Shown piece after piece: positions 18,617 to 35,991 of a DNA stretch of 39,527 nucleotides. The position numbers were made by a program, and so were the translations under genes. Numbering within the stretch: the first letter of the stretch is position 1; each line of letters begins with the position of its first letter. Location of the stretch: the NCBI RefSeq assembly GCF_030705415.1, contig NZ_JAUZED010000014.1:9565-49091 (forward strand). The letters run 5' to 3'. A model generated the notes under the pieces. That model searched no databases. It was not told where the DNA came from and saw nothing but the letters and a program-made list of their open reading frames with translations. This stretch comes from Curtobacterium sp. A7_M15 (GTDB lineage: Bacteria > Actinomycetota > Actinomycetes > Actinomycetales > Microbacteriaceae).

Positions 18617-18662
18617 ACCGTAGGCAGCCCCGGGACGCCGAGCGTGTCCGTGGCGCGGACAC
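18617..18662 (-). promoter_or_regulatory. MDR protein 1 promoter with TGTCC-N7-GGACA dyad
   Basis: The -10 box TACGGT (minus strand, complement of 18617-18622) is preceded after 22 bp by a dyad at 18645-18661, TGTCC-N7-GGACA, extended to GTGTCC/GGACAC. The same element and spacing occur at six other promoters in the window. Confidence 0.7.
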
Positions 18663-18728
18663 CCTGCTCGGGAGTGCGCCGTCGGACTCGTCGGTCGTGG
18701 GAGGATGGTCCGGCGCCTCCGTGCGCGT

Positions 18729-18800
18729 TCCGCCTTGGTGTAATGGCAGCACGACGGCCTTTGGTGCCGTTAGGTCCGGGTTCGAATCCTGGAGGCGGAG
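18729..18800 (+). tRNA. tRNA-Gln (anticodon UUG)
   Basis: A 72-nt cloverleaf: acceptor stem TCCGCCT/AGGCGGA (perfect 7 bp), D arm, anticodon stem ACGGC/GCCGT with loop CTTTGGT (anticodon TTG), and T arm CCGGG-TTCGAAT-CCTGG with one G-T pair. Discriminator G; CCA is not encoded. No integrase or repeated 3' end is seen nearby. Confidence 0.96.
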
Positions 18801-18810
18801 CTCTCGCGCG

Positions 18811-19764
18811 TCAGCGCACCGCCCGGAACGTGCTCCGGTACCGCGACGGCGTCGTGCCCAAGGCTGCCGACAGGTGACGTCGGAGCGACGTACCCGTCGC
18901 GTACCCGACCGAGGCGGCTATGCCGTCGACGTCCAGGGTCGTCGTCTCGAGGAGTTCTCGGGCTGCGGTGAGTCGCTGTTGGGTGAGCCACCGCAGGGGC
19001 GTCAGCCCGGTCTCGTCGAGGAACCGGCGGGCGAACGTCCGCTCGCTCATGTGCGCGTGCTCTGCCAGCGCGCGGACGCTCAGTGGTTCCTGCAGCCGGC
19101 CGAGCGCCCAGTCGCGCGTCGCTGACGTCGACTGATCGCTCGCGTTCGGCACCGGCCGCTCGATGAACTGCGCCTGACCGCCGTCCCGGTGCGGCGCGAC
19201 GACACAGCGACGGGCAGCGCGGTTCGCGAGTTCGGACCCGTGGTCCTCGCGGATGAGGTGCAGACAGAGGTCGATGCCCGCCGCGGCGCCGGCCGACGTG
19301 TGCACCCGGCCGTCGCTCGTGAAGAGCACGTCCTCGTCCAGCTCGACGTCCGGGAACCAACCGCGGAAGAGCGGGGCGCACTGCCAGTGGGTCGTCGCCC
19401 GGCGGCCGTCGAGGACGCCTGCCGCGGCGAGGGTGAAACCGCCCGTGCAGATCGAGACGATCCGTGCTGTGTCGGGGACCGCCGCGAGTGCATCCGTGAC
19501 GGCGCGCGGCAGCTCCCGCTGCAGCGAGTACGGCTCGACCGGCGCGATGATGACGGTGTCGGCGTCTGCGAGTGCCTCGGGCCCGGCGGACGGGGCGATG
19601 TCGAACCCGGCGTTCGTCCGGATCGGCCCGCCGTCCGGTGTGCAGAGGACCACCTCGTAGGCGTCGTCGGCGGCACCGAAGACCCGCGCCGGCATCCCGG
19701 CCTCGAACGGGTACGCGCCGTCCTGCGCGAGGACGACGACGCGGTGCGCGGACGCAGTGTGCAT
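18811..19764 (-). CDS. GlxA-type AraC family regulator (DJ-1/PfpI + double HTH)
   Basis: A 317-residue regulator. The N-terminal ~180 residues form a DJ-1/PfpI-like class I amidotransferase fold with the nucleophile-elbow segment SICTGGFTLAAAGVLDGRRATTHW. The C-terminal ~100 residues hold two AraC helix-turn-helices (LSVRALAEHAHMSERTFARRF and GIAASVGYATGTSLRRHL). Such proteins usually activate or repress adjacent catabolic or redox genes. It diverges from the NADP-dependent reductase gene across 70 bp. TACGAT six bases before the ATG marks a leaderless promoter. Its stop is 10 bp from the tRNA-Gln end. Confidence 0.92.
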   Translation of the reverse strand: MHTASAHRVVVLAQDGAYPFEAGMPARVFGAADDAYEVVLCTPDGGPIRTNAGFDIAPSAGPEALADADTVIIAPVEPYSLQRELPRAVTDALAAVPDTARIVSICTGGFTLAAAGVLDGRRATTHWQCAPLFRGWFPDVELDEDVLFTSDGRVHTSAGAAAGIDLCLHLIREDHGSELANRAARRCVVAPHRDGGQAQFIERPVPNASDQSTSATRDWALGRLQEPLSVRALAEHAHMSERTFARRFLDETGLTPLRWLTQQRLTAARELLETTTLDVDGIAASVGYATGTSLRRHLSAALGTTPSRYRSTFRAVR

Positions 19765-19834
19765 GGCGGGATCGTACCGGAACTTGACAGAACTGCCGTT
19801 GGTCGGTGCGCAGGTGCTCCCTAGCGTGGATCGC

Positions 19835-20767
19835 ATGGCAGAGACGATGTTCGCGATCACCCAGGACGAGCTCGGCGGACCGGAGGTCCTCCGCGGCGTC
19901 GAGGTCGGTCGACCCGTGCCCGGGGTGGGAGAGGTGCTGGTACGGGTCCGCGCCGCGGGCGTCAACCCGGCCGACCACATGTACCGCCAGACCGGCGCGT
20001 TCGGGGCGCACCCGCCGTTCACGCTGGGCTGGGACGTCTCGGGCACCGTCAGTGCGGTCGGTCCGGGCGTCACGGTCCTCGCGCCGGGCGACGAGGTGTT
20101 CGGGCTGCTCCCGTTCCCGAAGGGCGCCGGCGCCTACGCCGAGTACGTGGTCGCACCGACCCGTGCCCTCGTCCCGAAGCCGGACGCGCTGACGCACCCC
20201 GAGGCGGGCGCCCTGCCGCTCGCCGGGCTGACCGCCTGGCAGTCCCTCGTCGAGACCGCCCACGTCACCAGCGGCACGCGGGTGCTCGTCACCGGGGCGA
20301 CCGGGGGAGTGGGGCACCTCGCGATCCAGATCGCCGCCGCCCTCGGCGCCGAGGTCACCGCGCTCGCCTCGACCCCGAACGTCGATGCCGCACGCTCCTA
20401 CGGGGCGGCGCGCGTCGTGGACTACCGCACGACCGACGTCGCGACCGTGGTGGCCGACCTCGACGTCGTGATCGACGTGCTCGGCGGGGACTTCACCGCG
20501 ACGGCGGTCGGCGTGGTGCGTCCCGGCGGGACCGTCGTCACGATGATCCCGCAGATCGCAGACTCGACCCGGACCGCTGCCGCCGAGCGAGGGGTCCGGC
20601 TGGCCGGGCTCCTCGTCGAGGCCGACCGCCTCGGACTCCTCGAGCTGGTCCGGCTCGTCGAGGCGGGTCGGCTCCGCCCGACCGTGTCGGCGACCTACCC
20701 GTTGGCCGAGGCCGCCACCGCGCACCGCGACGGCGGCGGGTTCGGCAAGACCGTCCTGCTCCCCTGA
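19835..20767 (+). CDS. Quinone-oxidoreductase-like MDR family protein 2
   Basis: A 310-residue zinc-free NADPH-dependent reductase. Seen: VLVRVRAAGVNPADHMYRQ, GWDVSGTVSAVGPGV, Rossmann VLVTGATGGVGHLAIQIAAALG, and the C-terminal GGFGKTVLL typical of the family. Leaderless promoter: TTGGTC (19799-19804), 17 bp, TAGCGT (19822-19827), seven bases, ATG 19835. Divergent from the GlxA/AraC regulator, its probable controller, and followed 23 bp later by a small NTF2-like gene. Unlike MDR protein 1 it lacks the TGTCC-N7-GGACA element. Confidence 0.92.
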   Translation: MAETMFAITQDELGGPEVLRGVEVGRPVPGVGEVLVRVRAAGVNPADHMYRQTGAFGAHPPFTLGWDVSGTVSAVGPGVTVLAPGDEVFGLLPFPKGAGAYAEYVVAPTRALVPKPDALTHPEAGALPLAGLTAWQSLVETAHVTSGTRVLVTGATGGVGHLAIQIAAALGAEVTALASTPNVDAARSYGAARVVDYRTTDVATVVADLDVVIDVLGGDFTATAVGVVRPGGTVVTMIPQIADSTRTAAAERGVRLAGLLVEADRLGLLELVRLVEAGRLRPTVSATYPLAEAATAHRDGGGFGKTVLLP

Positions 20768-20790
20768 CCACCACGAACGAAGGAACCGAG

Positions 20791-21165
20791 ATGTCCACGA
20801 ACACCGAGACCGTGACCGCCTTCTACACGCGCGCCTTCAACGACGGCGAGCCGGAGGCCGCTGCTGCAGCGGCGATCGGCGACAGCTACGTGCAGCACAA
20901 CCCGGGGGCGCCGGACGGCGTGCCGGCGTTCGTCGCGTACGTGCACTCGATGCGCGAGCGGTTCCCCGAACTCCGCCTCGAGGTGAAGCGCACGATCGCC
21001 GAGGGTGACCACGTCGTCACCCACAGCGCCTTCCACCTGACCCCGGGCGACCGCGGTATGGCCGTCGCCGACATCTGGCGGCTCGAGGACGGCAAGATCG
21101 TCGAGCACTGGGACGTGATGCAGCAGGTCCCGGAGCAGTCGGCGAACACCAACACCATGTTCTGA
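20791..21165 (+). CDS. NTF2/SnoaL-like protein
   Basis: A 124-residue single-domain cone-fold protein of the SnoaL/ester-cyclase-like group. Seen: FYTRAFNDGEPEAAAAAAIGDSYVQHNP at the N-terminus and VADIWRLEDGKIVEHWDVMQ at the C-terminus, the family's signature strand pair. It could be an isomerase, cyclase or ligand-binding partner. GAAGGAAC upstream of the ATG is an adequate ribosome site. With a 23-bp gap it is almost surely cotranscribed with MDR protein 2. Confidence 0.88.
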   Translation: MSTNTETVTAFYTRAFNDGEPEAAAAAAIGDSYVQHNPGAPDGVPAFVAYVHSMRERFPELRLEVKRTIAEGDHVVTHSAFHLTPGDRGMAVADIWRLEDGKIVEHWDVMQQVPEQSANTNTMF

Positions 21166-21214
21166 AGCAGCGCCGGGGGCCGTGCCAAACCGTGAGGCGG
21201 TGTGGGCCCCAGCC

Positions 21215-21259
21215 TGTTCCCCACCGGGACACGTCCGCGATCCGGCACCTCCGTACGGT
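21215..21259 (+). promoter_or_regulatory. Hydratase-like gene promoter with TGTTC-N7-GGACA dyad
   Basis: A dyad at 21215-21231 (TGTTC, seven bases, GGACA) ends exactly 22 bp before the -10 box TACGGT (21254-21259). One mismatch to the shared element TGTCC-N7-GGACA. Confidence 0.6.
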
Positions 21260-21287
21260 CGACGACACCAACCGAACGGAGCTCCTG

Positions 21288-22106
21288 ATGTCCCCTGTGC
21301 AGTTCACCCGTGAGTCACCCGCGGTCGGACGCGTCGTCGTCTCGGATCCGCCCGTCGGCCTGATGACCGGTGCGACCGTCCGCGGTCTGGCCGACGTCGT
21401 CGCGCAGCTCGTTGACGACACGAGCATCAAGGTGGTCGTCTTCGAGAGCAGCACCGACGACTTCTTCCTGAACCACTTCGACCTCGCGCGGATCGACGAA
21501 TTCCCCGGTGGGGAGGCCTGGCTGGACCTCGTCGTCGCGCTGTCCGAGGCCCGGTACGTCACGGTCGCGGTGATCCGCGGGCGCACGCGCGGCGGTGGCA
21601 ACGAGCTCGCCCTGGCACTCGACCTGCGGTACGCGAGCCGAGAACGCGCTCGGTTCGGCCAACCCGAGGTCGGCACGGCGGTCGTCCCCGGTGGCGGCGG
21701 GACGGAGCGCCTGCCGCGACAGATCGGACGCGACCGTGCGCTCGAGGTCATCCTGACCAGCGCGGACTACGACGCCGACACCGCCGAACGCTGGGGCTGG
21801 GTGACCCGTGCGCTCGACGACGACCGACTCGACGAGCACGTCGCCGGCATCGTCGCGCGCCTCGCGTCGTTCGACGGTGACGCGCTCGCCACCGCGAAGG
21901 CGATGGTCGCCCGCGCTGCCCTGCCGCCGCGATCGGATCTCGAGCTCGCGTACCGGACCTTCCAGGAGCGGATGGTGAGCCCGTCGTACCTGGCCCGGGC
22001 GGCGGGCGGATCCGCTCCCCTCGAGGACGACCGGCTGCTCGCCGCGGAGCTCGACCTCGGTACCGTGATCGGCGAAGCCGCACGACGACGAGCCGGCGGC
22101 GCCTGA
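21288..22106 (+). CDS. Enoyl-CoA hydratase/isomerase family protein
   Basis: A 272-residue crotonase-fold protein. Seen: IKVVVFESSTDDFFLNHFDLARI (first oxyanion-hole region, atypical), GRTRGGGNELALALDLRYASRERARFGQPEV (second oxyanion-hole Gly and one candidate catalytic Glu), and GTERLPRQIGR. Glu positions seem partly conserved, but the first loop lacks the usual CAGAD sequence, so acyl-CoA substrate and reaction are open. ATG 21288 has GGAG seven bases upstream; the longer frame from 21192 crosses the promoter. It stands alone and ends 5 bp from a convergent VOC gene. It belongs to the putative TGTCC-N7-GGACA regulon. Confidence 0.88.
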   Translation: MSPVQFTRESPAVGRVVVSDPPVGLMTGATVRGLADVVAQLVDDTSIKVVVFESSTDDFFLNHFDLARIDEFPGGEAWLDLVVALSEARYVTVAVIRGRTRGGGNELALALDLRYASRERARFGQPEVGTAVVPGGGGTERLPRQIGRDRALEVILTSADYDADTAERWGWVTRALDDDRLDEHVAGIVARLASFDGDALATAKAMVARAALPPRSDLELAYRTFQERMVSPSYLARAAGGSAPLEDDRLLAAELDLGTVIGEAARRRAGGA

Positions 22107-22111
22107 GCCCG

Positions 22112-22573
22112 TCAGCTGAGACGCACCGTCTCGTCGAGCCACGGGGACCCGTGGTCTGCCTCGAGCTCGGGCCCGTGCGTCTGCCTCGTGTACAGCCGCA
22201 GCGCCGTGCCGTCGGGGTCGGGCACGACCATGAGCCACGCCTGGATCCCGGTCAGCACGGGGGAGTGCGCCACGCCGAGCTCGTCGAGGTATCTGCCCCA
22301 CTCCTCGAGGTCCGCGACCCCGGGGATCAGCATCGTGATCGGGTCGAAGCCCCGTTGCAGGAGCGCCCGCACGGGGTGCAGCCGCAGCTCCAGGAGGGTG
22401 CCGAGAGCGGGGACGCGGCAGATCACGGCGAACAGCTCACCGCTCGGACGGAAGTGGTCCGCCTCGGGGATCCGTTCGGCCCCGAGCGCGCGCTCGTAGA
22501 ACGCCAGCGAAGCGTCGAGGTCCGAGACCGGGACCTTCAGGTGGTGGATGCCGTCGATCGGTGGTCGCTGCAC
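22112..22573 (-). CDS. VOC-fold protein 2
   Basis: A 153-residue vicinal-oxygen-chelate protein. Seen: IDGIHHLKVPVSDLDASLAFYERALGAE at the N-terminus (metal-ligand His candidate) and WLMVVPDPDGTALRLYTR at the C-terminus, where the usual final Glu ligand is replaced (ALRLY), so metal binding may be altered. GTG 22573 has AGGAGGAG six bases upstream. A strong TGTCC-N7-GGACA promoter element precedes it. It diverges from the MarR2 operon and is convergent with the hydratase-like gene. Confidence 0.87.
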   Translation of the reverse strand: MQRPPIDGIHHLKVPVSDLDASLAFYERALGAERIPEADHFRPSGELFAVICRVPALGTLLELRLHPVRALLQRGFDPITMLIPGVADLEEWGRYLDELGVAHSPVLTGIQAWLMVVPDPDGTALRLYTRQTHGPELEADHGSPWLDETVRLS

Positions 22574-22611
22574 GATCTGCTCCTCCTGGCCGCGTCTGCG
22601 GCCGCGTCGGC

Positions 22612-22656
22612 ACGCTACTGCGATCGGCGGGGCCGATCCTGTCCCCGAGACGGACA
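22612..22656 (-). promoter_or_regulatory. VOC protein 2 promoter with perfect TGTCC-N7-GGACA dyad
   Basis: On the minus strand the -10 box TAGCGT (complement of 22612-22617) is preceded after 22 bp by a perfect dyad at 22640-22656. Among the seven sites this and the MDR protein 1 site are the cleanest. Confidence 0.7.
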
Positions 22657-22661
22657 CGTCG

Positions 22662-22707
22662 GCGGACGGGAGGCGCGGTGCGGGCCCGACCCGCGCCTCC
22701 CGTCCGC
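22662..22707. repeat. REP-like hairpin, copy 2 (17-bp perfect stem)
   Basis: Arms at 22662-22678 and 22691-22707 are perfectly complementary over 17 bp with a 12-base loop. The inner core GGAGGCGCGG/CCGCGCCTCC equals that of the hairpin at 7235-7277. It lies between two divergent promoters, where a terminator would make no sense, supporting a dispersed extragenic palindrome. Confidence 0.7.
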
Positions 22708-22725
22708 TCCTGGTCGCGTCGGGAA

Positions 22726-22743
22726 TACCTGACGCGTCAGGTA
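22726..22743 (+). promoter_or_regulatory. 18-bp perfect palindrome, likely MarR2 operator
   Basis: TACCTGACGCGTCAGGTA is an uninterrupted 18-bp palindrome ending 12 bp before the MarR2 GTG. MarR proteins typically autorepress through such sites, so this likely controls the whole MarR2-SDR-FAD operon. Confidence 0.75.
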
Positions 22744-24046: not shown

Positions 24047-25324
24047 ATGGAGATCGTCCGACCCGCCGATCGCGGGTACGCAGCCCTGCAGCACGTCTAC
24101 TCGAGCACCGGCCGACCGGGATCGATCCTGCTCCCGGAGACCACGAGCGAGGTCGCCGAAGCCCTCGGGATCGTGCGGGCGTCGGGTGGCCCCTTCGCGG
24201 TGCGCAGCGGCGGCCACGGCATCAGCAGCATCGCCACGAACACCGGTGGCGACGTCATCGACCTGCGAGCCCTCGCGTCGATCGAGCACCGGGGCGGACG
24301 GTCGGTCCGGATTGGTCCCGGTGCGCGCTGGGGCGCGGTCGCGTGGTCACTCGCCCCGCACGGACTGGCGATCAGCTCCGGCGACTCGGGTGACGTCGGG
24401 GTCGGCGGCCTCGCCACGACCGGTGGCATCGGGCTGATGGGCCGCGCGCACGGCCTCACCATCGACAGCCTGCGCTCCGCGGAGATCGTGACGGCGGACG
24501 GGATCGCGCGACGCGTCTCCGCCGACGAGGAGCCGGACCTGTTCTGGGCGGTCCGCGGCGCTGGCGCGAACTTCGGGATCGTCACCTCGTTCGACTTCGA
24601 GGCCTCTGAGACCGCGGACGTCGTGCAGACCACGGCCGTGTACCAGCCGCGTGACCTCGCCGCGTTCCTCCGGGAATGGGGCCGGACCGTCGAGTCAGCG
24701 GCGCGCGAGGTGTCGGCCTTCCTGTACATGGGCGCGGGGCCGACGCCCGTCGCGCAGGCGACGATCGTGTACGCCGGCGACGACGTCGACGCGGCGACAC
24801 CCGAGATCGAGCGGTTCCTGCGGCTCCCGGGGCTCTCGGGACAGCGGGCGGTGGTGACGCCGTACGCGGCGGTGCCCCTGACGAGTGGCGCACCGCACAC
24901 CGGACAGCAGCGCGCCTCCACCCACACCGGACTCGCCGCGCACCTCGACGAGGACCTGTCCGAGCGGATCGCGACCATGCTGCGGAGCGCCGGCGCGGAC
25001 ATGGTCCAGATCCGTTCGGTCGGCGGCGCGATCAACGACGTGGACCCGGCGGCCACCGCGTACGCGCACCGGCACCAGAACTTCTCGGTGACCGCCGTCT
25101 CGGTCCGGGGCGGGACTGCGTTCCACGACGCCTGGGAGCCCGTGCACGCCCTGATGGACGGCATGTACCTGAGCTTCGAGAGCGACCACGCCCCGGGCGC
25201 GGTCGCCGAGGCGTTCCCGCCCGCGACGCTCACGCGCCTGCGGGACCTCAAGGCGCGCTGGGACCCCGACGACCTGTTCGACCAGAACTTCGACGTGTCC
25301 GAGCAGCGGGTCCGGCTCAGCTGA
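24047..25324 (+). CDS. FAD-binding oxidase, berberine-bridge-enzyme (VAO) type
   Basis: A 425-residue flavoprotein. Seen: FAVRSGGHGISSIATNTGGDVIDLRAL, where the SGGH His is the usual 8-alpha-histidyl FAD attachment point; GVGGLATTGGIGLMGRAHGLTIDSL, in which the Cys used for bicovalent flavin in BBE enzymes is absent; LFWAVRGAGANFGIVTSF; and a C-terminal BBE-like end WDPDDLFDQNFDV. It oxidises alcohols, sugars or phenolic/alkaloid-like molecules with O2. No signal peptide is seen, so it is cytoplasmic. ATG 24047 has GAGG six bases upstream. Third gene of the MarR2 operon; its last 8 bp overlap the convergent regulator gene. Confidence 0.92.
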   Translation: MEIVRPADRGYAALQHVYSSTGRPGSILLPETTSEVAEALGIVRASGGPFAVRSGGHGISSIATNTGGDVIDLRALASIEHRGGRSVRIGPGARWGAVAWSLAPHGLAISSGDSGDVGVGGLATTGGIGLMGRAHGLTIDSLRSAEIVTADGIARRVSADEEPDLFWAVRGAGANFGIVTSFDFEASETADVVQTTAVYQPRDLAAFLREWGRTVESAAREVSAFLYMGAGPTPVAQATIVYAGDDVDAATPEIERFLRLPGLSGQRAVVTPYAAVPLTSGAPHTGQQRASTHTGLAAHLDEDLSERIATMLRSAGADMVQIRSVGGAINDVDPAATAYAHRHQNFSVTAVSVRGGTAFHDAWEPVHALMDGMYLSFESDHAPGAVAEAFPPATLTRLRDLKARWDPDDLFDQNFDVSEQRVRLS

Positions 25325-26144
25325 ACTCGACCGCACCCGCGATGCGCTCCGTGAGTTCGGCGAGTGCCGCGGCGCTGTCGGAGCCCGGGACGGCGTGGTA
25401 GGCGCAGAGCAGGTACCCCGGCGTGTTCGGCACCACGAACGTCTGGTGGCGGAGGGCGACCTGGCCGTACCCCTCGACGAAGGGTCGGACGTCGCCGTCG
25501 TAGTACGGGTCGACCTCGTGGCGCTCCCAGAGGCCGCGGAACACCGGGTCGAGCGTCGCCAGCCGCGTCGCGGTCTCGTGGAGCCGCGGGTCGTACGGGT
25601 GGCCGTAGAACCGCATGCGCCGAACGGTCCGGTCGGCGAGTGCGGGCCAGGTCGGGAGCGCCCGCACCTCGGGGAACGTGAAGACCACCTCGGGGATGCT
25701 CCTGCCGACCTCGAGCCCGAGCGGGACCACCCATCGCGCGAGGGCGTTCGAGAGCACGACCTCGTGGCGGGAGTTGATGATGTACGCCGGTGTGTTCGGC
25801 CAGGAGTCGAGGATGGCGGACATCGCCTCGACGGACACCGCCGCCTCGGCAGCCGCCACGTCGAGTGGCTGGACCGTGCTCATCCGCAGCAGGTGCTGCA
25901 GGCCGGCGTCGTCGAGCCGCAGCGCCCGGGCCAACGCGTGGAGGACCTGGTCGGAAGGGGCGCGGTCGCGGCCCTGCTCCAGCCGCAGGTAGTACTCCTG
26001 ACTGATCCCGGCGAGCCCGGCCACCTCGTCGCGACGGAGCCCCGGTACGCGGCGGCGCGTGTGCGAACCGACCCCCACGTCCTCGGGGCGGGTCGCGGCC
26101 CGACGGGCGCGGAGGTAGTCGCCGAGGGGTGTCGTCCGTGCCAT
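25317..26144 (-). CDS. XRE regulator with MmyB-type ligand domain, copy 1
   Basis: A 275-residue transcription factor. An N-terminal XRE helix-turn-helix (about residues 6-85; LRRDEVAGLAGISQEYYLRLEQGRDRAPSDQ) is followed by an MmyB-like ligand-binding domain (about 105-270; NTPAYIINSRHEVVLSNALARW, VFRGLWERHEVDPYYDG, FVVPNTPGYLLCAYHAVPG). The family commonly sits beside oxidoreductase genes and responds to small molecules or fatty acids (family knowledge). ATG 26144 has GAGGA upstream. It is divergent from the SRPBCC/MBL fusion gene, whose promoter contains a TGTCC-like dyad, making this protein a prime candidate binder. A close paralogue lies at 29910-30761. Confidence 0.93.
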   Translation of the reverse strand: MARTTPLGDYLRARRAATRPEDVGVGSHTRRRVPGLRRDEVAGLAGISQEYYLRLEQGRDRAPSDQVLHALARALRLDDAGLQHLLRMSTVQPLDVAAAEAAVSVEAMSAILDSWPNTPAYIINSRHEVVLSNALARWVVPLGLEVGRSIPEVVFTFPEVRALPTWPALADRTVRRMRFYGHPYDPRLHETATRLATLDPVFRGLWERHEVDPYYDGDVRPFVEGYGQVALRHQTFVVPNTPGYLLCAYHAVPGSDSAAALAELTERIAGAVEFS

Positions 26145-26222: not shown

Positions 26223-26267
26223 TGCCCCCGACGGGGACACCCTCGCGTCACCCGGGACCCGTAGCGT
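26223..26267 (+). promoter_or_regulatory. SRPBCC/MBL fusion promoter with TGCCC-N7-GGACA dyad
   Basis: The dyad at 26223-26239 ends 22 bp before TAGCGT (26262-26267). One mismatch to TGTCC-N7-GGACA. It lies between the divergent MmyB-type regulator gene and its target. Confidence 0.6.
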
Positions 26268-27625: not shown

Positions 27626-27667
27626 GCGCCCGTGCAGGTTACGCTGTCCACGACCGGGAGGAGCGTC

Positions 27668-29881
27668 GTGGGTGGCACGGACCTCGCAGCGCGGCTCCGG
27701 ACACTGCGGCTGGCAGCCGGGATGACGCTCGAGACACTCGCCGAACGGTCGGGCGTGAGCGTCCGGGGGATCAGCGACATCGAGCGCGGTCGCAGTCGGC
27801 ATCCGCAGCCCCGCACGATCGAGGCGCTGGTGCTCGGGCTCGGGCTCGACGAGGCGGCACGGCGATGGCTCCGGGCGCCGCTGGTGGGTGCCGGCTCCGG
27901 TGCCGGACCGGACACCGGGCGCACGGACTTCCGCCCACCCCGCGTGGCGGACTTCACCGGCCGCTCGGACGAACTCGAACGACTCGTCGCGGGCCTCGAC
28001 CGGCCGTCCGGCCCTCCGGTCGTCGTGGTCTCCGGACCGCCGGGCATCGGGAAGACCGCGCTCGTGACCGAGGCGATCGGACGGGCGGCCGGCGCCGAAC
28101 GCCGCGTCTTCGTCGACCTCGCCGGACACGGCCGACCGGCGACGACCGCGCTCGAGGTGCTCCAGCGCGTCCTCCGGCAGTGCGACCCGGACGATCCACC
28201 GGGCACGCTCGGCGCGGCAGCGGCACGGTGGTCGGAGCTGTGCACGACCGAACGGGTGCTGGTGCACCTCGACAACGTCTCGAGCGAGGACCAGGTCCGA
28301 CCCGTGCTCGTCGAGGGGCGGTCGACCGTCGTCGCGACCTCGCGTCGGACGCTCGCCGGTCTCGACGCGGACCGGATCGTCCTCGGCGTGCTCGGACCGG
28401 AGGACGGCCGTCGACTGCTCGAGCGCATCGTGCCCGCCGAACAGCGCGATCCCGCCGCGGTGGACGAACTCATCACGCTGTGCGACGGGTTCCCCCTCGC
28501 GCTCCGCGTCGCCGCGAACCGCATCGCGAGCCGTCCCGCGACGAGCGCCGCAGACCTCGTCGCGCGCCTCCGCTCGGCCGACCGCAGGCTCACGCTGCTC
28601 GTGGCCGGCGACGTCTCGGTCGCGGCGGCGATCGCGGTCTCCTACGACGACCTCGACCCGGGCACCGCAGCCGTGTTCCGGGCGACCGCGGCGCTCGACG
28701 GCGTCACGTTCGGGGCGGACGTCGTCGCGGCGGCGCTCGGCGCAGACCCGGACGAGATCGAGTCGCGCCTCGAGGGACTGGTCGACCTGGGCCTCGTCGA
28801 ACCCCGGGGTGCGCGCTACCGCGTCCACGACATCATCCGTCTGTTCGCGCGCGAGCGGCTCCGCGAGGACCCCCGGGCCGAGGCCGCTGCGGGGGAGCGG
28901 CTCACGCGGTGGTTGCTCGGCCGGCTCCTGGCAGCCGGGTCGGTGTTCGTGGTGCCCGGCCGGGCACCCGTCGCGCAGCCCGACGCCGACCAGGACGTCG
29001 CCCGCGACTGGATCCTCGGCGAGGTCGACCACTGGTGGCCGGCGTACCGCCGCGCCGCTGCGCTGGGGTGGCACGAGACCGTGATCGAGCTCACGGCCGT
29101 CCTGCAGTGGTTCGCGAACCTCTGGCCGGACTGGGGACGCTGGTACGAGCTCGACCTCGTGGCACAGCGCGCGGCCGACGCCCTCGCGGACGATGCCGTG
29201 CGCTCACGGGTCGCGGGGCACCTCGCCTGGGCGGCGCACATCGAGCTCGGGGACCACGACCTGGCCGCGCAGCACGCGGACGAGGCACTCGCCGCGGCCG
29301 AACGGGCCGGGGCGCCCGACCTCGTCGCCTGGGGGCACTACCACGTCGCCTGGAGCGCACTCGAGCGCGGGGACCCCGTCGCGGCCGAAGCACACGCGCT
29401 CACCGCGGTCGCGGGGTTCGAGCGCGAGGACGACCCCGTCTTCCTGCACCAGGCTCGCGGGATGCTCGGCCTCGCCCTGCAGACCCAGGGCCGGTACGAC
29501 GAAGCGGTCACCGCGCTCCGAGCGGCGGTCGACGGCATCGTGGAGGGCCTCGACCCCGTCGATGAACGCGTCCGGTACGCGCAGGCGCTCGCCCGCGCGG
29601 CGCTCGCCTCCACGCTGCTCGAGGCCGGCGCGCCGGGAGAGGCGCTCGAGGTCCTCGACGCTGCGCTGCGGACGCTGCCGGACGACACCGGGACGTCCAT
29701 CGGCCTGCTGCTCCGTTCGCGGGCTGCGGTGCTCGTGGAACTGGGGCGCCCCGAGGAAGCGCTGGCCGACGTGGAGCGCGCGCTGCACGCCCTGCCTGCG
29801 CGTGTCCGTCCGGCACGACTGGACCCACTGCACCGGGAACTGTCGGCGCTCCGCGACACGCTCACCGATCCGGCCGACTGA
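27668..29881 (+). CDS. HTH-NB-ARC-TPR (STAND) regulator, copy 1
   Basis: A 737-residue signal-transduction ATPase. Residues about 5-70 are an XRE-like HTH (LETLAERSGVSVRGISDIERG). About 100-370 form the NB-ARC ATPase with Walker A SGPPGIGKT (about 122), Walker B VLVHLDN, GLPL-equivalent GFPLALRVAA and winged-helix VHDIIRLFARERL. About 440-735 are TPR-like repeats. STAND proteins switch on through ligand-driven oligomerisation; many act as transcription regulators in actinomycetes. GTG 27668 has GGGAGGAG (27656-27663) upstream and TACGCT at 27640-27645. Its close paralogue starts at 30883, so the pair arose by duplication. Confidence 0.9.
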   Translation: MGGTDLAARLRTLRLAAGMTLETLAERSGVSVRGISDIERGRSRHPQPRTIEALVLGLGLDEAARRWLRAPLVGAGSGAGPDTGRTDFRPPRVADFTGRSDELERLVAGLDRPSGPPVVVVSGPPGIGKTALVTEAIGRAAGAERRVFVDLAGHGRPATTALEVLQRVLRQCDPDDPPGTLGAAAARWSELCTTERVLVHLDNVSSEDQVRPVLVEGRSTVVATSRRTLAGLDADRIVLGVLGPEDGRRLLERIVPAEQRDPAAVDELITLCDGFPLALRVAANRIASRPATSAADLVARLRSADRRLTLLVAGDVSVAAAIAVSYDDLDPGTAAVFRATAALDGVTFGADVVAAALGADPDEIESRLEGLVDLGLVEPRGARYRVHDIIRLFARERLREDPRAEAAAGERLTRWLLGRLLAAGSVFVVPGRAPVAQPDADQDVARDWILGEVDHWWPAYRRAAALGWHETVIELTAVLQWFANLWPDWGRWYELDLVAQRAADALADDAVRSRVAGHLAWAAHIELGDHDLAAQHADEALAAAERAGAPDLVAWGHYHVAWSALERGDPVAAEAHALTAVAGFEREDDPVFLHQARGMLGLALQTQGRYDEAVTALRAAVDGIVEGLDPVDERVRYAQALARAALASTLLEAGAPGEALEVLDAALRTLPDDTGTSIGLLLRSRAAVLVELGRPEEALADVERALHALPARVRPARLDPLHRELSALRDTLTDPAD

Positions 29882-29909: not shown

Positions 29910-30761
29910 TCAGACGGCGACGCTGCGACGTCCGGTGGGGGCCGCGACGTCGTTCCGGAGGGCCGCCAGCGCCCGCGCGCCGTCCGTCCCGGGGGTCGCG
30001 TGGAACGCGGTCAGCACGAACCGCTGGGGGCCAGGGACCTCGAGGGTCTGACACGTGAGGGTCACCCGACCCTGCCCGTGCACGTCCTGTTCGAGCGCTC
30101 CGTTCAGGTACGGACGGGCATCGTGCCGCGCCCACAACCGCCGGAACTCCGCGTCGCGGACCGACAGCGTGCCGACGATCTCCTGGAGGCGCCGGTCGCG
30201 TGGGTCGCTCCCGTAGCGCAGCGTGGCCGCGGTCCGTTCGGCGGCCTCGGGCCAGTCGGGCATCAGGGCTCGGCCCACCGGTGAGAACACCGCCAGCGGC
30301 AGGTTCACGCCGGGCGCCAGTCCGCCCCCGGTCATCGCGCGCGCCAGCGGGTTCACGACCAGCACGTCCTGGTTGCCGTCCATCACGTAGGCGGGCGTCT
30401 CGGTCCACTGGTCGAGGAGACCGCCGAGGGTCTCCATGACCCGGGGCGGCGTCGTGCGGTCGCCGGCCCGGGCCTCTCCGGTCTGGATCCGGACCAGGCG
30501 GTCCATGTGGTCGACGGCGTCCTGGTCCAGACGGAGCGCGCGGCCCAGTGCGTGCAGCACCTGGTCCGACGGTTGGCGGTCGCGGCCCTGCTCGAGTCGG
30601 AGGTAGTACTCCTGGCTGATCCCGGCACGCCGGGCCACCTCGTCCCGTCGCAGGCCGACCACCCGTCGCGGTGTCGACGACACGATGCCGACGTCCTGCG
30701 GTTGCACGAGTGCTCGTCGGGCGCGGAGGTACTCACCCAGGGGTGTGATCGCAGTCGGCAT
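29910..30761 (-). CDS. XRE regulator with MmyB-type ligand domain, copy 2
   Basis: A 283-residue paralogue of the regulator at 25317-26144: HTH LRRDEVARRAGISQEYYLRLEQGRDRQPSDQ near the N-terminus, then an MmyB-type domain (TPAYVMDGNQDVLVVNPLARAM, AEFRRLWARHDARPYLNG, QTLEVPGPQRFVLTAFHATPG). The HTH recognition helices of the two copies are nearly identical, so they likely bind similar DNA, while ligand domains diverge. ATG 30761 has GAGGGAG upstream. It is divergent from STAND regulator 2 (121-bp gap) and convergent with STAND regulator 1 (28-bp gap). Confidence 0.93.
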   Translation of the reverse strand: MPTAITPLGEYLRARRALVQPQDVGIVSSTPRRVVGLRRDEVARRAGISQEYYLRLEQGRDRQPSDQVLHALGRALRLDQDAVDHMDRLVRIQTGEARAGDRTTPPRVMETLGGLLDQWTETPAYVMDGNQDVLVVNPLARAMTGGGLAPGVNLPLAVFSPVGRALMPDWPEAAERTAATLRYGSDPRDRRLQEIVGTLSVRDAEFRRLWARHDARPYLNGALEQDVHGQGRVTLTCQTLEVPGPQRFVLTAFHATPGTDGARALAALRNDVAAPTGRRSVAV

Positions 30762-30824: not shown

Positions 30825-30882
30825 GCCCACCAGGCACCCGGTGCGGGCACCATGCAGAACGCAGGCAGGAATCGAGGACGAC

Positions 30883-33141
30883 GTGCAGGAACCACCCCAC
30901 GGCGAGCTCCTCAGACGGCTGCGGACCACGGCGGGCCGGACGCTCGCCGAGCTCGCCGCAGCAGCGCACGTCGGCGTCCGGACCCTGAGCGACATCGAGC
31001 GGGGGGTCGCGCGGCGCCCGCAGCGCGCGACGATCGAGGCGATCGCGTCGGCGCTCGGTGCGACGGCGGCCGAACGCGCAGCGCTGCTGTCGATCGGGCG
31101 AGCGGATCCTGCGACACCCGAGAGCGCGCCGGACGTCGTCGTCGACTTCACCGGCCGCGGCCGCGAACTCAGCAAGGTGCTCGACCACCTCCGGGACGAC
31201 CGGCCCGGGATCGTGCTCGTGTCCGGCGGCCCCGGCATCGGCAAGAGCACGTTCGCGGCCGAGGCGTTGCGCGTCCACGGCGTCCCGTGGGTGCACGTCG
31301 ACCTCGCCGGGCAGACGACCTCGCCGCTCTCGGCGCTCGACGTCCTCCGCCGCCTCGTCACCCGAGCCACGGACGGCGCCGAGGAAGCGCCCGCCGTCCT
31401 GGACGCCGCGGCAGCTCGCTGGCGCGGGATCAGCGCGGACCACCCGCACGCGGTGCTGCTCGACGACGCCGCCAGCGAGGCGCAGGTGCGTCCGGTGGTC
31501 GAAGCGGCGGCGCCGGGGACCCCGGTGATCGTGACGAGCCGGAGCCCGCTGGCCGGTCTCGACGCCGGACTCCGCGTCCAGGTCGACCCCCTGCATCCCG
31601 TCGACGCCCACTCGCTGCTGGAGCGGATCGTGCCGGACGCCGCGGACGACCCGGCGCTGGCAACGGTTGCCGACCAATGCGCGGGGATCCCGCTGGCACT
31701 CCGGATCGCCGGCAGCCGCATCGCGGCAGGCGTCGACGACGTCCACGGCTTCCTCGGTGCGATGCGCGCCGAGGAGCGACGGCTCGGCGCCCTCCGCCAC
31801 GGTGACCGCTCGGTCGAGTCCGCGTTCGCCGTCTCGTACGAGCGTCTGCCGGTCGCCACGGCGCGGCTGTTCCGGTCGCTCGCGGTGATCGACGGGACGA
31901 GTTTCGACGCCCGGACCGGCGGCGCGGCCCTGGGCCTCGACGACGTGACCGCCGAGGACGCCCTCGAGGACCTGGTCGACCTGGGGCTCGTCGAGCCCCG
32001 GGGCGGCAACCGGTACCACGTGCACGACCTGCTCCGCGCGTTCGGCGCCGACCGCATCGTCGCCGAGGACGGTCCCGGTACGCCCCGGGCGCTGCGGGAG
32101 CGACTGCACGGGACGGTCCTCGGCGTGCTGGGTCGAGCCGCACGGCTGTTCGCCTCCGAGTCCGTCCGCGGGGGCCGGGCCGAGCCGGAGTTCGGCGACC
32201 CGACTGCGGCGAGGCGGTGGATCACCGCCGAGGTGGACCACTGGTGGGCGGCGTTCCGTGCTGCGGTGTCGGACGGCCGGCACGGCGAAGTCGCCCGGAT
32301 CGCGACCGGACTCGAGTGGTTCTCGAACCTGTGGCCCGCGTGGGGCCACTGGTACGAGCTGTTCGGCGATGCGGTCGACGCCGCGCACACGGTCGGCGAC
32401 CGGGCATCGGCAGCACGCCTGCTCGGCCTGCAGACGTGGGCCGCGCTGATGGAGCGGGGAGACCGCGCGGGCGCGCTCGAACTCGCCACGAGGGGCCTCG
32501 CGGACGCCCGCGAGGCCGACGACGACGCCGTGTCCGCGAGCGCCGAGTACCACGTCGCATGGGCGTACCTGGCACTCCGCCAGCCGGAGCGCGCGCTGCC
32601 GCACATCGACGCGGCGATCGACGGGAACACGAGGACCGGCGACGACGCCGCACTCGTGCAGTGTCGCTCGATGGCGGGCGCGGCGCTCCACCTGCTCGGC
32701 CGACACGACGAGGCGATCGCCGCGTTCCGGGCGGTCCTCCGCGACCTCGACCGGGTCGGGGGCGGCGACCCCGGAGCGGTGTTCACCCGGGTCGTGGCGC
32801 TCGAGGAGATCGCGAAGTCGGCGAACGCGCTGGGGCGGTGGGACGAAGCCCGCGAGGCCGCGGACGAGGGCTTCGATGCCGCCTCGGAGATGTCGTGGGA
32901 CACGGGTGCTGCTCGGGCGCTGCGACAGCGTGCCGAGGCGCTGCTCGGTTCCGGCGAGACGGAGCGGGCCCGACGCGACGCCGAGCGAGGGATGGCCCTG
33001 GTCGACGCCGACCGGGCGGACGCCCAGGCCGGCGCGGTGCTCGGCGAGCTGCGTGAGCTGCTCGATCGGGCCGACGGCGGGACGCCGGGAGTCGAGTCTG
33101 TCCGCAGTGGGGACAGGCTGGCGGCACCGCCCGCCGACTAG
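30883..33141 (+). CDS. HTH-NB-ARC-TPR (STAND) regulator, copy 2
   Basis: A 752-residue paralogue of the protein at 27668-29881. HTH about 5-70 (RTLAELAAAAHVGVRTLSDIERG), NB-ARC about 95-370 with Walker A SGGPGIGKST (about 115), Walker B AVLLDDA, GIPLALRIAG, and VHDLLRAFGADRI. TPR-like repeats run from about 450 to 735, sharing motifs such as WFSNLWPAWGHWYEL with copy 1 (WFANLWPDWGRWYEL). The GTG at 30883 has AGGA upstream and begins the conserved HTH; an earlier in-frame ATG at 30853 adds nothing conserved. The promoter dyad for the following ABC exporter lies inside its last 15 codons. Confidence 0.9.
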   Translation: MQEPPHGELLRRLRTTAGRTLAELAAAAHVGVRTLSDIERGVARRPQRATIEAIASALGATAAERAALLSIGRADPATPESAPDVVVDFTGRGRELSKVLDHLRDDRPGIVLVSGGPGIGKSTFAAEALRVHGVPWVHVDLAGQTTSPLSALDVLRRLVTRATDGAEEAPAVLDAAAARWRGISADHPHAVLLDDAASEAQVRPVVEAAAPGTPVIVTSRSPLAGLDAGLRVQVDPLHPVDAHSLLERIVPDAADDPALATVADQCAGIPLALRIAGSRIAAGVDDVHGFLGAMRAEERRLGALRHGDRSVESAFAVSYERLPVATARLFRSLAVIDGTSFDARTGGAALGLDDVTAEDALEDLVDLGLVEPRGGNRYHVHDLLRAFGADRIVAEDGPGTPRALRERLHGTVLGVLGRAARLFASESVRGGRAEPEFGDPTAARRWITAEVDHWWAAFRAAVSDGRHGEVARIATGLEWFSNLWPAWGHWYELFGDAVDAAHTVGDRASAARLLGLQTWAALMERGDRAGALELATRGLADAREADDDAVSASAEYHVAWAYLALRQPERALPHIDAAIDGNTRTGDDAALVQCRSMAGAALHLLGRHDEAIAAFRAVLRDLDRVGGGDPGAVFTRVVALEEIAKSANALGRWDEAREAADEGFDAASEMSWDTGAARALRQRAEALLGSGETERARRDAERGMALVDADRADAQAGAVLGELRELLDRADGGTPGVESVRSGDRLAAPPAD

Positions 33142-33144
33142 CCT
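33099..33144 (+). promoter_or_regulatory. ABC exporter promoter with perfect TGTCC-N7-GGACA dyad
   Basis: The dyad at 33099-33115 ends 23 bp before TAGCCT (33139-33144), itself six bases from the GTG start. The whole promoter is embedded in the 3' end of STAND regulator 2, and the -10 box overlaps its stop codon. Confidence 0.7.
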
Positions 33145-33150
33145 GCGACG

Positions 33151-33894
33151 GTGCGAGGAGACACCGAGGACCCGCCCGTCGTCCGAGCCCGGGACATCGA
33201 GCACGCCTACCCCGGTCGCGAGGCCGTCCCCGTCCTGCGCGGAGTGTCGCTCGACGTCCGCCGCGGCGAGATGCTGGCGGTCGTCGGCCCGAGCGGCTCC
33301 GGGAAGAGCACGCTGCTCGCGTGTCTCTCGGGGCTCGAGCGCCCGCTCCGGGGCGCCGTGGAGATCGAGGGCACCGACATCGGCTCGCTCTCGCGACAGC
33401 GTTCGGCGCGGTTCCGCCGCGGTCGGGTCGGCTTCGTCTTCCAGTCGTACAACCTGATCCCGGCCCTCACCGCCCGTGAGAACGTCGCGCTGCCGGCACG
33501 CCTGGCGAAGCGTCCCGCGGACCGCAGGACGGTCGACGCCGCACTGGACGCCGTCGGGATGCTCGGCGACGCGCACCGGTACCCCGACGCGATGTCCGGC
33601 GGGCAGCAGCAGCGCGTGGCGATCGCGCGGACGCTCGTCGCCCGGCCCCGGGTCCTCTTCGCCGACGAGCCGACCGGGGCGCTCGACACCGTGGCCGGTG
33701 GCGCGGTGCTCGACCTGTTGCGCCAGACCGCCTCGGGCGAGCGGTCGGTCGTCATGGTGACGCACGACCTCGCGGCAGCGGCGCGTGCCGACCGCGTGGT
33801 CGTCCTGCGGGACGGCGTCGTCCACGCCGAGTTGGTCGCACCGGACGTCGACGCGCTCTTCGACGCGGTCGAACGCGCGGCGGCCCGCGCATGA
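33151..33894 (+). CDS. ABC transporter ATP-binding protein (MacB/LolD-like)
   Basis: A 247-residue ATPase subunit. Seen: Walker A VVGPSGSGKSTLL, Q-loop VGFVFQSYNLIPALTARENV, signature MSGGQQQRVAIARTL, Walker B VLFADEPTGALDTV, H-loop VMVTHDLAAAARAD. This is the MacB/LolD/BceA group that powers FtsX-type permeases. The transcript is leaderless (TAGCCT-N6-GTG). The stop overlaps the permease ATG by 4 bp. The start is 10 bp after the STAND regulator 2 stop. Likely an exporter of peptides, lipids or antimicrobials. Confidence 0.95.
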   Translation: MRGDTEDPPVVRARDIEHAYPGREAVPVLRGVSLDVRRGEMLAVVGPSGSGKSTLLACLSGLERPLRGAVEIEGTDIGSLSRQRSARFRRGRVGFVFQSYNLIPALTARENVALPARLAKRPADRRTVDAALDAVGMLGDAHRYPDAMSGGQQQRVAIARTLVARPRVLFADEPTGALDTVAGGAVLDLLRQTASGERSVVMVTHDLAAAARADRVVVLRDGVVHAELVAPDVDALFDAVERAAARA

Positions 33895-35225
33895 TCCTCG
33901 CCCGGCTGGCGGCGGCGGACCTCCGCACGTCGTGGCGCGTCTGGTCCGGCCTGTGCGCGGTGTGCGCGGTGGCCGCGGTGGCCGGCAGCGTCCCCGGCGT
34001 GCTCGTGGTCGGTGGCCTGCGCACCCCGGGCGTCCGGGGGCTGGCGCTGCTGTCCATCGCCGGGACGACCGCCGCGTTCGGACTCGTCGCGATCCTCGTG
34101 GTCGTGTCCGCCGTGGCGCGGCTCACCGCAGGACTCCTCGTGCGGACGTACGCCCTCTGGCAGCTCGCCGGCGTGACTCCCGGAGGGGTCAGGGTGACGG
34201 TGCTCGTGCAGACAGCACTCGTCGCCCTGCTCGGCGCCGTGGTCGGAGTGGCCGCAACGGGCGTCGTCGTCCCGGCCACCGTCGGTGCAGCCCTGGCCGG
34301 TGCTTCCGGGCTCGACGGCGTCCGGGTGGCCACTTCCCGGCTCGAGGCCTTCTCCGTGATCGCATCGACGGTCGTCGCCGCTGTCGTCGCCGGACTCGCG
34401 GGGAGCCGGCGCGCCGCCGCGACACCGGCGCTGCTCGGTGCCGGACCGGGGACGGACGGACACCGGCCGCCGATCCTCCCTGCGGCGGTCGCGGCGCTGC
34501 TGACGGCGCTCGCGGCGAGCATGCTCGCCGGACTCCCGGCTTCGGTCCCGCACGGTGCGGCGCCCGCGCTCCTGATCGGTCCGGGGCTGGTGGCGGCGGT
34601 CGCCGTCCTCGGAAGGTGGGTCGGCACGCCCGTCGTGCGACTGTGGACGGCGGTGGTCCCGGCGAACGCCTGGGTGTCCTTCGGTCTCGCACGGGCCGCG
34701 GTCCGGCGGGCCGCAGCCCGGAGCGACACGACGCTCGCCGCACTCCTGGTCGCCGTGGCACTGCCGACCGCGCTCGTCGGTGGCCAGCGGACCGCGGGCA
34801 CCGCGACCGGCGGTGACGCGACCGGGAGCGGCTCCGCGGTGACGACGGTCCTCGTCCTCAGCGGACCGGTCCTGCTCGCGGCCGTCGGAGCCGCAGCGAC
34901 GGCGGCGATGGCGTCCCGGGACCGGGCGCGCGAGCGCGAGCAGCTGCTGGCGGTGGGCGCGACCCCGGCGCTGCCGGTCGGTGTGGCAGCGCTCGAGGGC
35001 GTGGTCCTCGGGGTGAGCGGCACGCTCGTCGCAGCGGCCACGGTTGCCCTCTCCGTCACCGCGGAGTGGGGAGTGCTCGCGGGGCAGTACCCGTCGACCA
35101 GGCCGGTCCTCCCAGTCGGGCTCCTGCTGGCCATCGGTGGCTCGTGCACGGCACTGGTCGTCCTGACGTCCATCGTGCCCGCCCTGCCGGGGTGGACGCG
35201 GGAGCGGAACACCCCGCGCGACTGA
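33891..35225 (+). CDS. FtsX-like ABC transporter permease
   Basis: A 444-residue integral membrane protein with about ten hydrophobic segments, arranged as two FtsX-like repeats; TYALWQLAGVTPGGVRVTVLVQTALVALLGAVVG and REREQLLAVGATPALPVGVAALEGVVLGV are the paired coupling-helix/TM signatures. It lacks a large periplasmic MacB domain. It forms the transporter with the ATPase encoded just upstream (4-bp overlap). Cargo is unknown; the micro-genes downstream at 36034-36317 are possible but unproven cargo or partners. Confidence 0.9.
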   Translation: MILARLAAADLRTSWRVWSGLCAVCAVAAVAGSVPGVLVVGGLRTPGVRGLALLSIAGTTAAFGLVAILVVVSAVARLTAGLLVRTYALWQLAGVTPGGVRVTVLVQTALVALLGAVVGVAATGVVVPATVGAALAGASGLDGVRVATSRLEAFSVIASTVVAAVVAGLAGSRRAAATPALLGAGPGTDGHRPPILPAAVAALLTALAASMLAGLPASVPHGAAPALLIGPGLVAAVAVLGRWVGTPVVRLWTAVVPANAWVSFGLARAAVRRAAARSDTTLAALLVAVALPTALVGGQRTAGTATGGDATGSGSAVTTVLVLSGPVLLAAVGAAATAAMASRDRAREREQLLAVGATPALPVGVAALEGVVLGVSGTLVAAATVALSVTAEWGVLAGQYPSTRPVLPVGLLLAIGGSCTALVVLTSIVPALPGWTRERNTPRD

Positions 35226-35293
35226 GCGCGACGACCCACGCGTCCGGCGACCGTGCGCCGCACCGCCGGCAGTTCGACCGGACCGCGGGATGG

Positions 35294-35339
35294 TGTCCCC
35301 GGCGGGAGCACGATGCCCTCGGCGCGGGAGCCGTACGCT
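35294..35339 (+). promoter_or_regulatory. Orphan ligand-domain gene promoter with TGTCC-N7-GAGCA dyad
   Basis: TGTCC at 35294-35298 and GAGCA at 35306-35310, seven bases apart, end 23 bp before TACGCT (35334-35339). The right half-site is degenerate (3 of 5), but spacing and the N7 sequence CCGGCGG closely match the site at 26223 (CCGACGG). Confidence 0.5.
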
Positions 35340-35345
35340 CCGTCC

Positions 35346-35894
35346 GTGAGCACGGACGACTCGGCCGACCATCCACGAGCGCTGCTCGGCAGGCTCCTGC
35401 TGCCGTGGCGGACGGTCCCCGCCGTCGTCTACGACCGACACCTGACCGTCCGTGTGGCGAACGCGTTGGCCGGAGCCGTGCACCCGACGTTCCGGCCCGG
35501 AGAGAACCTCGCGCGGGCCGCGTTCCTGCGGACCGCGGGCGACAGCACGTTCCGCGCATCGCCGGAGCCGCCGGACACGGTCCCGCTGGCCGCGCGCGTC
35601 GTCGCGGAGCTGCGGCGCACCCTCGACGAGCACGACGAGGACCGCGGGTACGTCGAACTGGTCGGCGAACTCGCGGCCCGGAGCGAGGCCTTCGCCCGGC
35701 TCTGGGCGGACCCGGTCGCCGCCGAGCCGGCTGGGGTCGTCCGCTTCGACAACCCGGTGGTGGGTCGCGTGGCACTCGCCCACCACCGGTTCGCGGTGCC
35801 CGGTCCGGCGGGCGACACGTTGCTGCTGTGGCGTGGCGCGGACGAGGAGTCCGCTCGCCGCCTGACGAGCCTCGCCGACACCCTGGTCGACTGA
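35346..35894 (+). CDS. Stand-alone MmyB-type ligand-binding domain without HTH
   Basis: A 182-residue protein matching only the ligand-binding half of the MmyB-type regulators in this window: TVPAVVYDRHLTVRVANALAGAV, RSEAFARLWADPV, VGRVALAHHRFAVPGPAGDTLLLWRG. No helix-turn-helix precedes it. The GTG at 35346 follows TACGCT by six bases, so the short form is the intended product, not a truncated pseudogene. It could heterodimerise with, titrate or feed ligand to the two full-length regulators (inference). It sits 120 bp after the ABC permease. Confidence 0.85.
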   Translation: MSTDDSADHPRALLGRLLLPWRTVPAVVYDRHLTVRVANALAGAVHPTFRPGENLARAAFLRTAGDSTFRASPEPPDTVPLAARVVAELRRTLDEHDEDRGYVELVGELAARSEAFARLWADPVAAEPAGVVRFDNPVVGRVALAHHRFAVPGPAGDTLLLWRGADEESARRLTSLADTLVD

Positions 35895-35945
35895 ACGCCG
35901 GTCCGGGCCGCGACGAGCGGCACGGCCACCTGCCCCTACGGGGGA

Positions 35946-35991
35946 TGGTCCCCGGGGGGACACGTGCGGAGCAGACCACCGGCCGTAGCGT
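35946..35991 (+). promoter_or_regulatory. Micro-gene promoter with degenerate dyad ending in GGACA
   Basis: The left half is TGGTC (35946-35950, 3 of 5 matches) and the right half GGACA (35958-35962) is perfect. It ends 23 bp before TAGCGT (35986-35991). An overlapping GTCCCC/GGGGAC dyad at 35949-35961 may be the real recognition unit. Confidence 0.5.

Follow-up and report, generated by a model that had tools for sequence, protein, structure and literature searches.

An operator dyad at fixed distance from the −10 box marks a Curtobacterium gene cluster as a probable regulon of MmyB-type XRE activators

A block of the Curtobacterium sp. A7_M15 genome raises the question of which protein reads a 17-bp dyad that recurs ahead of its genes, and to what effect. 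The block lies within a stretch of 39,527 nucleotides (contig NZ_JAUZED010000014.1, positions 9,565 to 49,091; hereafter ‘the window’, meaning this whole stretch), in which a first-pass annotation had listed seven TGTCC-N7-GGACA sites at a constant 22 or 23 bp from a −10 box reading TAGCGT, TAGCCT, TACGGT or TACGCT. All seven sites are present at the positions and on the strands then given, the spacing holds at each of them, and the mismatch counts (0, 1, 0, 1, 0, 2 and 2) agree with the earlier grading into three perfect sites, two with one mismatch and two with a degenerate half (Table 1). We consider it probable that an MmyB-type XRE activator uses these dyads as its operators, most likely the regulator that we call MmyB1, with a second regulator, MmyB2, as a possible co-regulator.

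Taken by itself the dyad shows no enrichment: the window has 27 instances with up to two mismatches, where shuffled sequences lead one to expect 24.6. The argument therefore draws on exact copies, fixed spacing and conservation. The genome-wide scan that the annotation had proposed found exact dyads confined to the block: there are three copies in the 3.83-Mb genome and all three lie there. When window dyads with up to two mismatches were paired with TANNNT hexamers at any gap from 5 to 40 bp, every pair fell at 22 bp (four) or 23 bp (three), while Markov-1 sequences of the same length gave a mean of 0.12 pairs at 22/23 and a maximum of 2 among 100 sequences. A search of the genome for dyads with up to three mismatches at gap 22 from TASSGT returned 88 hits, the top four of which (0, 0, 1 and 1 mismatches) are the window's gap-22 sites. 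None of the 12 one-mismatch dyad loci of the same genome (L004–L015) has a −10 box at 22/23, and among 30 exact-dyad loci from other members of the genus (L016–L045, the first such locus of each genome, with L042 belonging to the cluster of the relative G029 described below) a single one does. This is L022 of genome G009, where an exact dyad near position 1501 has TACGGT at gap 22 with a nusG-like frame downstream and no MmyB match in the locus; it is probably a chance occurrence.

The same spacing recurs in relatives. In the window and the corresponding regions of four genomes of the same genus (G001, G029, G034 and G063), 410 dyads with up to two mismatches yielded 55 pairs with TANNNT at gaps of 5–40 bp, 43 of which were at 22 or 23 bp (7 in the window, 12 in G001, 10 each in G029 and G034, and 4 in G063), with none at 21 or 24 and 12 across the other 34 gaps. 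A second contig of the A7_M15 genome, C223, adds four pairs at 22/23 and one at 17, which brings the genome to at least 11 sites; the four precede an alpha/beta hydrolase gene, a leaderless micro-gene, a weakly DUF302-like gene and a second hydrolase gene. As the end of C223 aligns to G001 at 2129269, and the match to the last gene of the window (MFS) starts about 77 bp further on, C223 is probably the right-hand neighbour of the window and continues the cluster past its right end; the window itself breaks off in a G-rich stretch (39437–39527) shortly after the MFS gene has begun. The annotation's proposal of a local regulon of seven promoters thus stands as to the regulon, while the four C223 sites exclude one that is purely local to the window.

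Aligned, the sites define a longer element, TGTCCC-N5-GGGACA-CGC(T)-N18/19-TASCGT, in which the dyad arms are extended to 6 bp and an asymmetric CGC(T) follows directly 3′ of the dyad, in the −35 region (C in 35, G in 39, C in 29 and T in 24 of the 43 sites). Across 62 pairs of corresponding promoters, bases +1 to +4 past the dyad, which played no part in site selection, were 79% identical, compared with 51% for the dyad centre and 35–39% for the flanks; the pairs came from nine promoter groups, including a DUF302 group with members from G001 and G063 whose downstream genes are not shown to be orthologous. A rigidly spaced, directional element of the form GGGACA-CGC(T)-N18/19-TASCGT might instead be what an alternative sigma factor recognizes, in place of an activator site joined to a −10 box. 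We give this very little credence, since dyad positions 6/12 and 8/10, which were not selected for, are symmetric (C35/G39 and G29/C29 of 43), which indicates a dimeric protein, and since the sites track MmyB genes and genes for an MmyB-type ligand domain across genera (see below).

The position of the dyad relative to the promoter fits that of a class II activator site. If the −10 box spans −12 to −7, which is what the leaderless starts indicate, the end of the dyad falls at −35/−36 and its centre at −43/−44, close to the −42 expected of a class II operator; the dyad abuts the −35 region, and the −35 element is poor. Indeed, a TTGACA-like −35 element (at least 4 of 6 bases, spacers of 16–19 bp) was found in none of 47 promoters (the 43 above and the 4 of C223), against about 10% of 302 TASSNT hexamers from the same regions, a control that includes the sites themselves. 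An ATG or GTG stood exactly 6 nt past the −10 box at 16 of the 47 sites and at 36 of those 302 hexamers, which suggests leaderless transcripts at these sites; for the ABC exporter ATPase gene the start codon has this position in all four genomes that have the site (window, G001, G029 and G063). A familiar case with this architecture is lambda cI, which activates P_RM from OR2 as a dimer with an XRE-type helix-turn-helix (HTH), bound to a 17-bp operator just upstream of −35, in class II fashion, and which has no PAS-like ligand domain. The likeness is one of operator length, HTH type and class II geometry, and we claim no relation between the operator sequences.

An operator that abuts −35 could also be repressive, and the same MmyB-type proteins might act as repressors that block RNA polymerase there until a ligand releases them. 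MsrR of C. glutamicum, an XRE-family repressor, works on divergent promoters (PMC7532634, cited from an excerpt). We regard repression as unlikely: with no TTGACA-like element the promoters look unable to fire unaided, a rigid 22/23 spacing is typical of activators, and PMC10717218 (likewise from an excerpt) calls MmyB itself a positive regulator. The annotation's argument that a site just upstream of −35 is what an activator needs is thus upheld as to geometry, while the sign of regulation is something that we infer.

We then asked whether the sites are kept at orthologous promoters, the absence of which the annotation had named as evidence against its proposal. Five of the seven window promoters retain the site at orthologues, the MDR and VOC promoters being the two that do not. 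The SRPBCC/MBL site occurs in four genomes (window, G001, G029 and G034) and at the orthologue of Promicromonospora citrea, the ABC exporter site in the four named above, the site of the orphan ligand-domain gene in four (window, G001, G029 and G034) and the crotonase site in two (window and G034). The micro-gene site is found in the window (G000), G001 and G034 at up to two mismatches, and in G029 with three, before the orthologue of the second micro-gene. The five include both sites that had been thought weak enough to be chance; recurrence of the orphan ligand-domain site in four genomes, and of the micro-gene site in three plus the three-mismatch copy of G029, leads us to reject the idea that they are noise. 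Several alpha/beta hydrolase genes of the relatives also lie behind sites, as do MDR genes in G001 and G029 whose relation to the window's MDR gene is one of paralogy rather than orthology. For some small genes the automatic choice of open reading frame (ORF) gave a wrong or doubtful frame (for example, G001 2132864 and 2127752).

The operator also precedes leaderless micro-genes, each about 50 codons long, at L050 (6490–6648), L053 (2957–3103), L055 (7759–7914) and L046 (near 4110). Those of three relatives have a common LAS-(I/L)-xL-xR-(I/L)-L core and no Pfam match; the C223 copy is known from its leaderless start only.

Which protein, then, would bind? The annotation had named the two MmyB-type regulators of the block as the best candidates, and comparison supports them as candidate binders while favouring MmyB1 over MmyB2. 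Both have the N-terminal XRE-type HTH and C-terminal PF17765 domain of MmyB-like proteins, and both contain AGISQEYYLRLEQGRDR, an identical recognition helix. MmyB1 is divergent from an SDR/MDR/beta-lactamase-type partner, here the MBL-fold fusion (SRPBCC/MBL) gene, and the divergent neighbour of MmyB2 is a STAND gene. An MmyB1 orthologue at 67% identity or more is present in 5 of 66 genomes of the genus, the window's own included, and matches to STAND1, MmyB2, ABC, orphan ligand-domain, AKR and MFS genes occur in the regions of all four relatives, arranged similarly in G001 and G029 and more dispersed in G034. The dyad is found in the divergent upstream region of MmyB1 in all seven orthologues examined (G000, G001, G029, G034, G063, P. 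citrea and P. thailandica) and the 22-bp promoter in six of them, which makes MmyB1 the better candidate as judged from sequence. As to a fold shared with MltR (3pxp), a search of solved-structure sequences (E ≤ 1e-3) gave a single match, the phage-type immunity repressor 8bny, over the HTH, and an AlphaFold model of MmyB1 built from five sequences was of low confidence (mean predicted local distance difference test score 53.5).

The two HTH_31-NB-ARC-TPR (STAND) proteins of the block are rival binders. Their genes are interleaved with the two MmyB genes and both are matched in the regions of G001, G029, G034 and G063, where at least one has an orthologue; the G063 match to STAND2 is at 39.7% only and overlaps the match to STAND1. 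However, their recognition segments are unlike those of MmyB1 and MmyB2, and both Promicromonospora loci (L095 and L096) have sites with no STAND match within the roughly 10.8 kb covered, the rest of those genomes not having been searched. We reject STAND proteins as the sole binder on the latter ground, and think it highly improbable that they bind the dyads at all.

Beyond the genus, the site adjoins the MmyB1 orthologues of P. citrea and P. thailandica (69–70% identity) and an MmyB2-like gene of Herbiconiux moechotypicola, and six Promicromonospora/Herbiconiux loci together gave seven pairs at 22/23 and three at other gaps. At 52 more distant MmyB loci (about 37–47% identity) ten pairs were at 22/23 versus two at other gaps, whereas 41 comparison loci, chosen for having a dyad and including three with an MmyB match (L020, L021 and L032), gave one versus six. 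On genome counts, spacing and this difference between MmyB and comparison loci we reject a chance origin of the sites. The same difference links the geometry to a subset of MmyB-type proteins that extends beyond the present cluster. A search upstream of distant MmyB genes for dyads of any sequence gave a weak, mixed signal.

Several observations weigh against assigning the dyads to MmyB-type activators. The only orthologues of the MDR and VOC genes in the regions read, in G034 and G063 respectively, have no site within three mismatches, nor does the G063 copy of the orphan ligand-domain gene. In G063 the exact dyad beside MmyB1 has TACCCT at gap 15 and nothing at 22/23 (the 54 kb read there gave no MBL match), and an exact dyad in the G029 cluster (L042) has no TANNNT at any gap of 5–40 bp. 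The divergent region of MmyB2 has no such promoter. The 90% identity of the dyad arms in the 62 promoter pairs is inflated, as sites were picked by the dyad. Finally, three of the six Promicromonospora/Herbiconiux loci (L101–L103) have no 22/23 site, and a site is likewise absent from the majority of the 52 distant MmyB loci; the operator therefore holds for part of the family only.

Other MmyB clades were seen with other dyads. In one of the same genus (L061–L067) the regulators' own promoter has GAGAAC-N4-GTTCTC 18–21 bp from TATCCT/TAGCGT, which is a different operator type. A clade with an ISADYY helix (L074, L075 and L076) has TGRCCGGGGCRGGGCCA on the divergent side, 23 bp from a −10 box, which looks like a variant of the half-site.

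One target of the putative operator is itself a relative of the regulators. The orphan MLTR_LBD protein aligns to the ligand domain of MmyB1 and MmyB2, without the HTH, and relatives of it at E ≤ 1e-15 occur in 54 of 398 Microbacteriaceae genomes, where lower-ranked matches may be full-length MmyB proteins. For the 30 best loci, one per genome, we scanned 260 bp upstream on the coding strand for dyads with up to three mismatches, and tested the open frame for an HTH by pattern match. No HTH signature was found in frame in any of the 30; 13 had a dyad at 22/23 bp from a −10 box, with two pairs at other gaps of 10–40 bp, and 17 had no site. Eleven of the 13 come from other genera, and two (L163 and L168) are near-identical loci of one genus. 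At the distant loci L061, L113, L114, L128 and L138, moreover, the site beside the MmyB gene sits directly before the ligand-domain match. Given these loci and the 13 of 30, a sensor copy predicted to be dead for DNA binding is a recurrent part of what lies under this operator.

We infer binding, activation, ligand and feedback as follows. A dimer of MmyB1 would bind the 17-bp TGTCCC-N5-GGGACA and contact the sigma factor at the CGC(T) −35 region, substituting for the missing −35 element. Its ligand domain may sense a small, probably hydrophobic molecule, upon which MmyB1 would turn on the cluster: oxidoreductases, hydrolases, the VOC protein, the MBL fusion and ABC/MFS exporters. In the window and relatives together, targets comprise MDR/SDR-type and flavin mononucleotide oxidoreductases, hydrolases, VOC, HbpS-like, PEBP-like and MBL proteins, and exporters; this set looks like one for detoxification and efflux, and suggests that the cluster responds to a small molecule that is toxic or serves as a signal. 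The HTH-less sensor copy, itself a target, could weaken the response, either as a sink for the ligand or as a partner in inactive heterodimers. More tentatively, and with our own opinion close to evenly divided but leaning to doubt, we propose a general circuit in which part of the MmyB family activates from a dyad at −43/−44 without a −35 element and has its own HTH-less sensor as a recurrent target, feeding back through ligand sequestration or inactive heterodimers.

The kind of system is known. More than a thousand MmyB-type regulators have been counted (PMC3406030, in excerpt), which adjoin SDR/MDR and beta-lactamase-type genes and are often divergent from their target (PMC3406030), and pseudo-palindromic ‘B-boxes’ have been suggested for MmyB (excerpts of PMC3406030 and PMC10717218). 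The present cluster resembles the MmyB/MltR family as these excerpts present it in its XRE-type HTH joined to an MmyB ligand domain, its divergent target and its MDR/SDR or beta-lactamase-type neighbours; it differs in having one operator at 11 or more cluster promoters at a fixed distance, the B-boxes being compared by their description only. SLCG_7083 of Streptomyces lincolnensis, a 223-residue protein similar to PF17765 whose loss changes gene expression, is like the orphan sensor in that no HTH is described in the excerpted text, whereas that text describes neither an operator nor an MmyB partner for it (PMC10717218). A 2025 survey of computed palindromes upstream of XRE regulators reports 223 motif clusters (PMC12565409, in excerpt); TGTCC and GGACA do not appear in its main text, and a TGTCCC/GGGACA cluster in its supplementary motif table is possible. 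Our searches of the open-licence PMC literature showed no operator consensus for MmyB-type proteins. As far as we have seen, three things are new here: the operator, its rigid promoter geometry and the HTH-less partner under its control. A fixed operator and promoter geometry would make MmyB regulons readable from sequence; if half-site bases do vary with the recognition helix, this would extend to a readable operator code for a large family, and the recurrence of an HTH-less partner behind this operator points to an added level of feedback.

Table 1 Features of the window. Mismatches are counted against TGTCC-N7-GGACA; gap is the number of bp between dyad and −10 hexamer.
Feature	Position	Strand	Properties	Context
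Operator dyad TGTCCGCGCCACGGACA	18645–18661	−	0 mismatches, gap 22, −10 TACGGT 18617–18622	Before MDR reductase gene 17667–18569
Operator dyad TGTTCCCCACCGGGACA	21215–21231	+	1 mismatch, gap 22, −10 TACGGT 21254–21259	Before crotonase-fold gene 21288–22106
Operator dyad TGTCCGTCTCGGGGACA	22640–22656	−	0 mismatches, gap 22, −10 TAGCGT 22612–22617	Before VOC gene 22112–22573
Operator dyad TGCCCCCGACGGGGACA	26223–26239	+	1 mismatch, gap 22, −10 TAGCGT 26262–26267	Before SRPBCC/MBL gene 26291–27625
Operator dyad TGTCCGCAGTGGGGACA	33099–33115	+	0 mismatches, gap 23, −10 TAGCCT 33139–33144	Before leaderless ABC exporter ATPase gene 33151–33894
Operator dyad TGTCCCCGGCGGGAGCA	35294–35310	+	2 mismatches, gap 23, −10 TACGCT 35334–35339	Before leaderless HTH-less MmyB sensor gene
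Operator dyad TGGTCCCCGGGGGGACA	35946–35962	+	2 mismatches, gap 23, −10 TAGCGT 35986–35991	Before micro-gene pair ~36034–36162 and 36159–36317
MmyB1, HTH_31 + MLTR_LBD regulator	25317–26144	−	PF13560 3.2e-12, PF17765 1.7e-28	Best candidate binder
MmyB2, HTH_31 + MLTR_LBD regulator	29910–30761	−	PF13560 8e-12, PF17765 6.7e-35	Recognition helix same as MmyB1
STAND1, HTH_31-NB-ARC-TPR protein	27632–29881	+		Rival regulator; recognition segment unlike MmyB1/2
STAND2, HTH_31-NB-ARC-TPR protein	30841–33141	+	Pfam	
ABC exporter	33151–35225	+	ATPase 33151–33894 (PF00005), permease-like ORF 33891–35225	
Orphan MLTR_LBD protein	35346–35894	+	182 aa, without HTH	Aligns to ligand domain of MmyB1/2

Among the remaining features of the window, the fifth operator falls within the 3′ end of the upstream STAND2 frame, 35 bp ahead of the ABC gene start. 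The second ORF of the exporter has no Pfam match and may be a permease. At the left edge of the cluster, a tRNA-Gln (TTG) gene (18729–18801) lies close upstream of the first regulon promoter and is a possible island attachment site.

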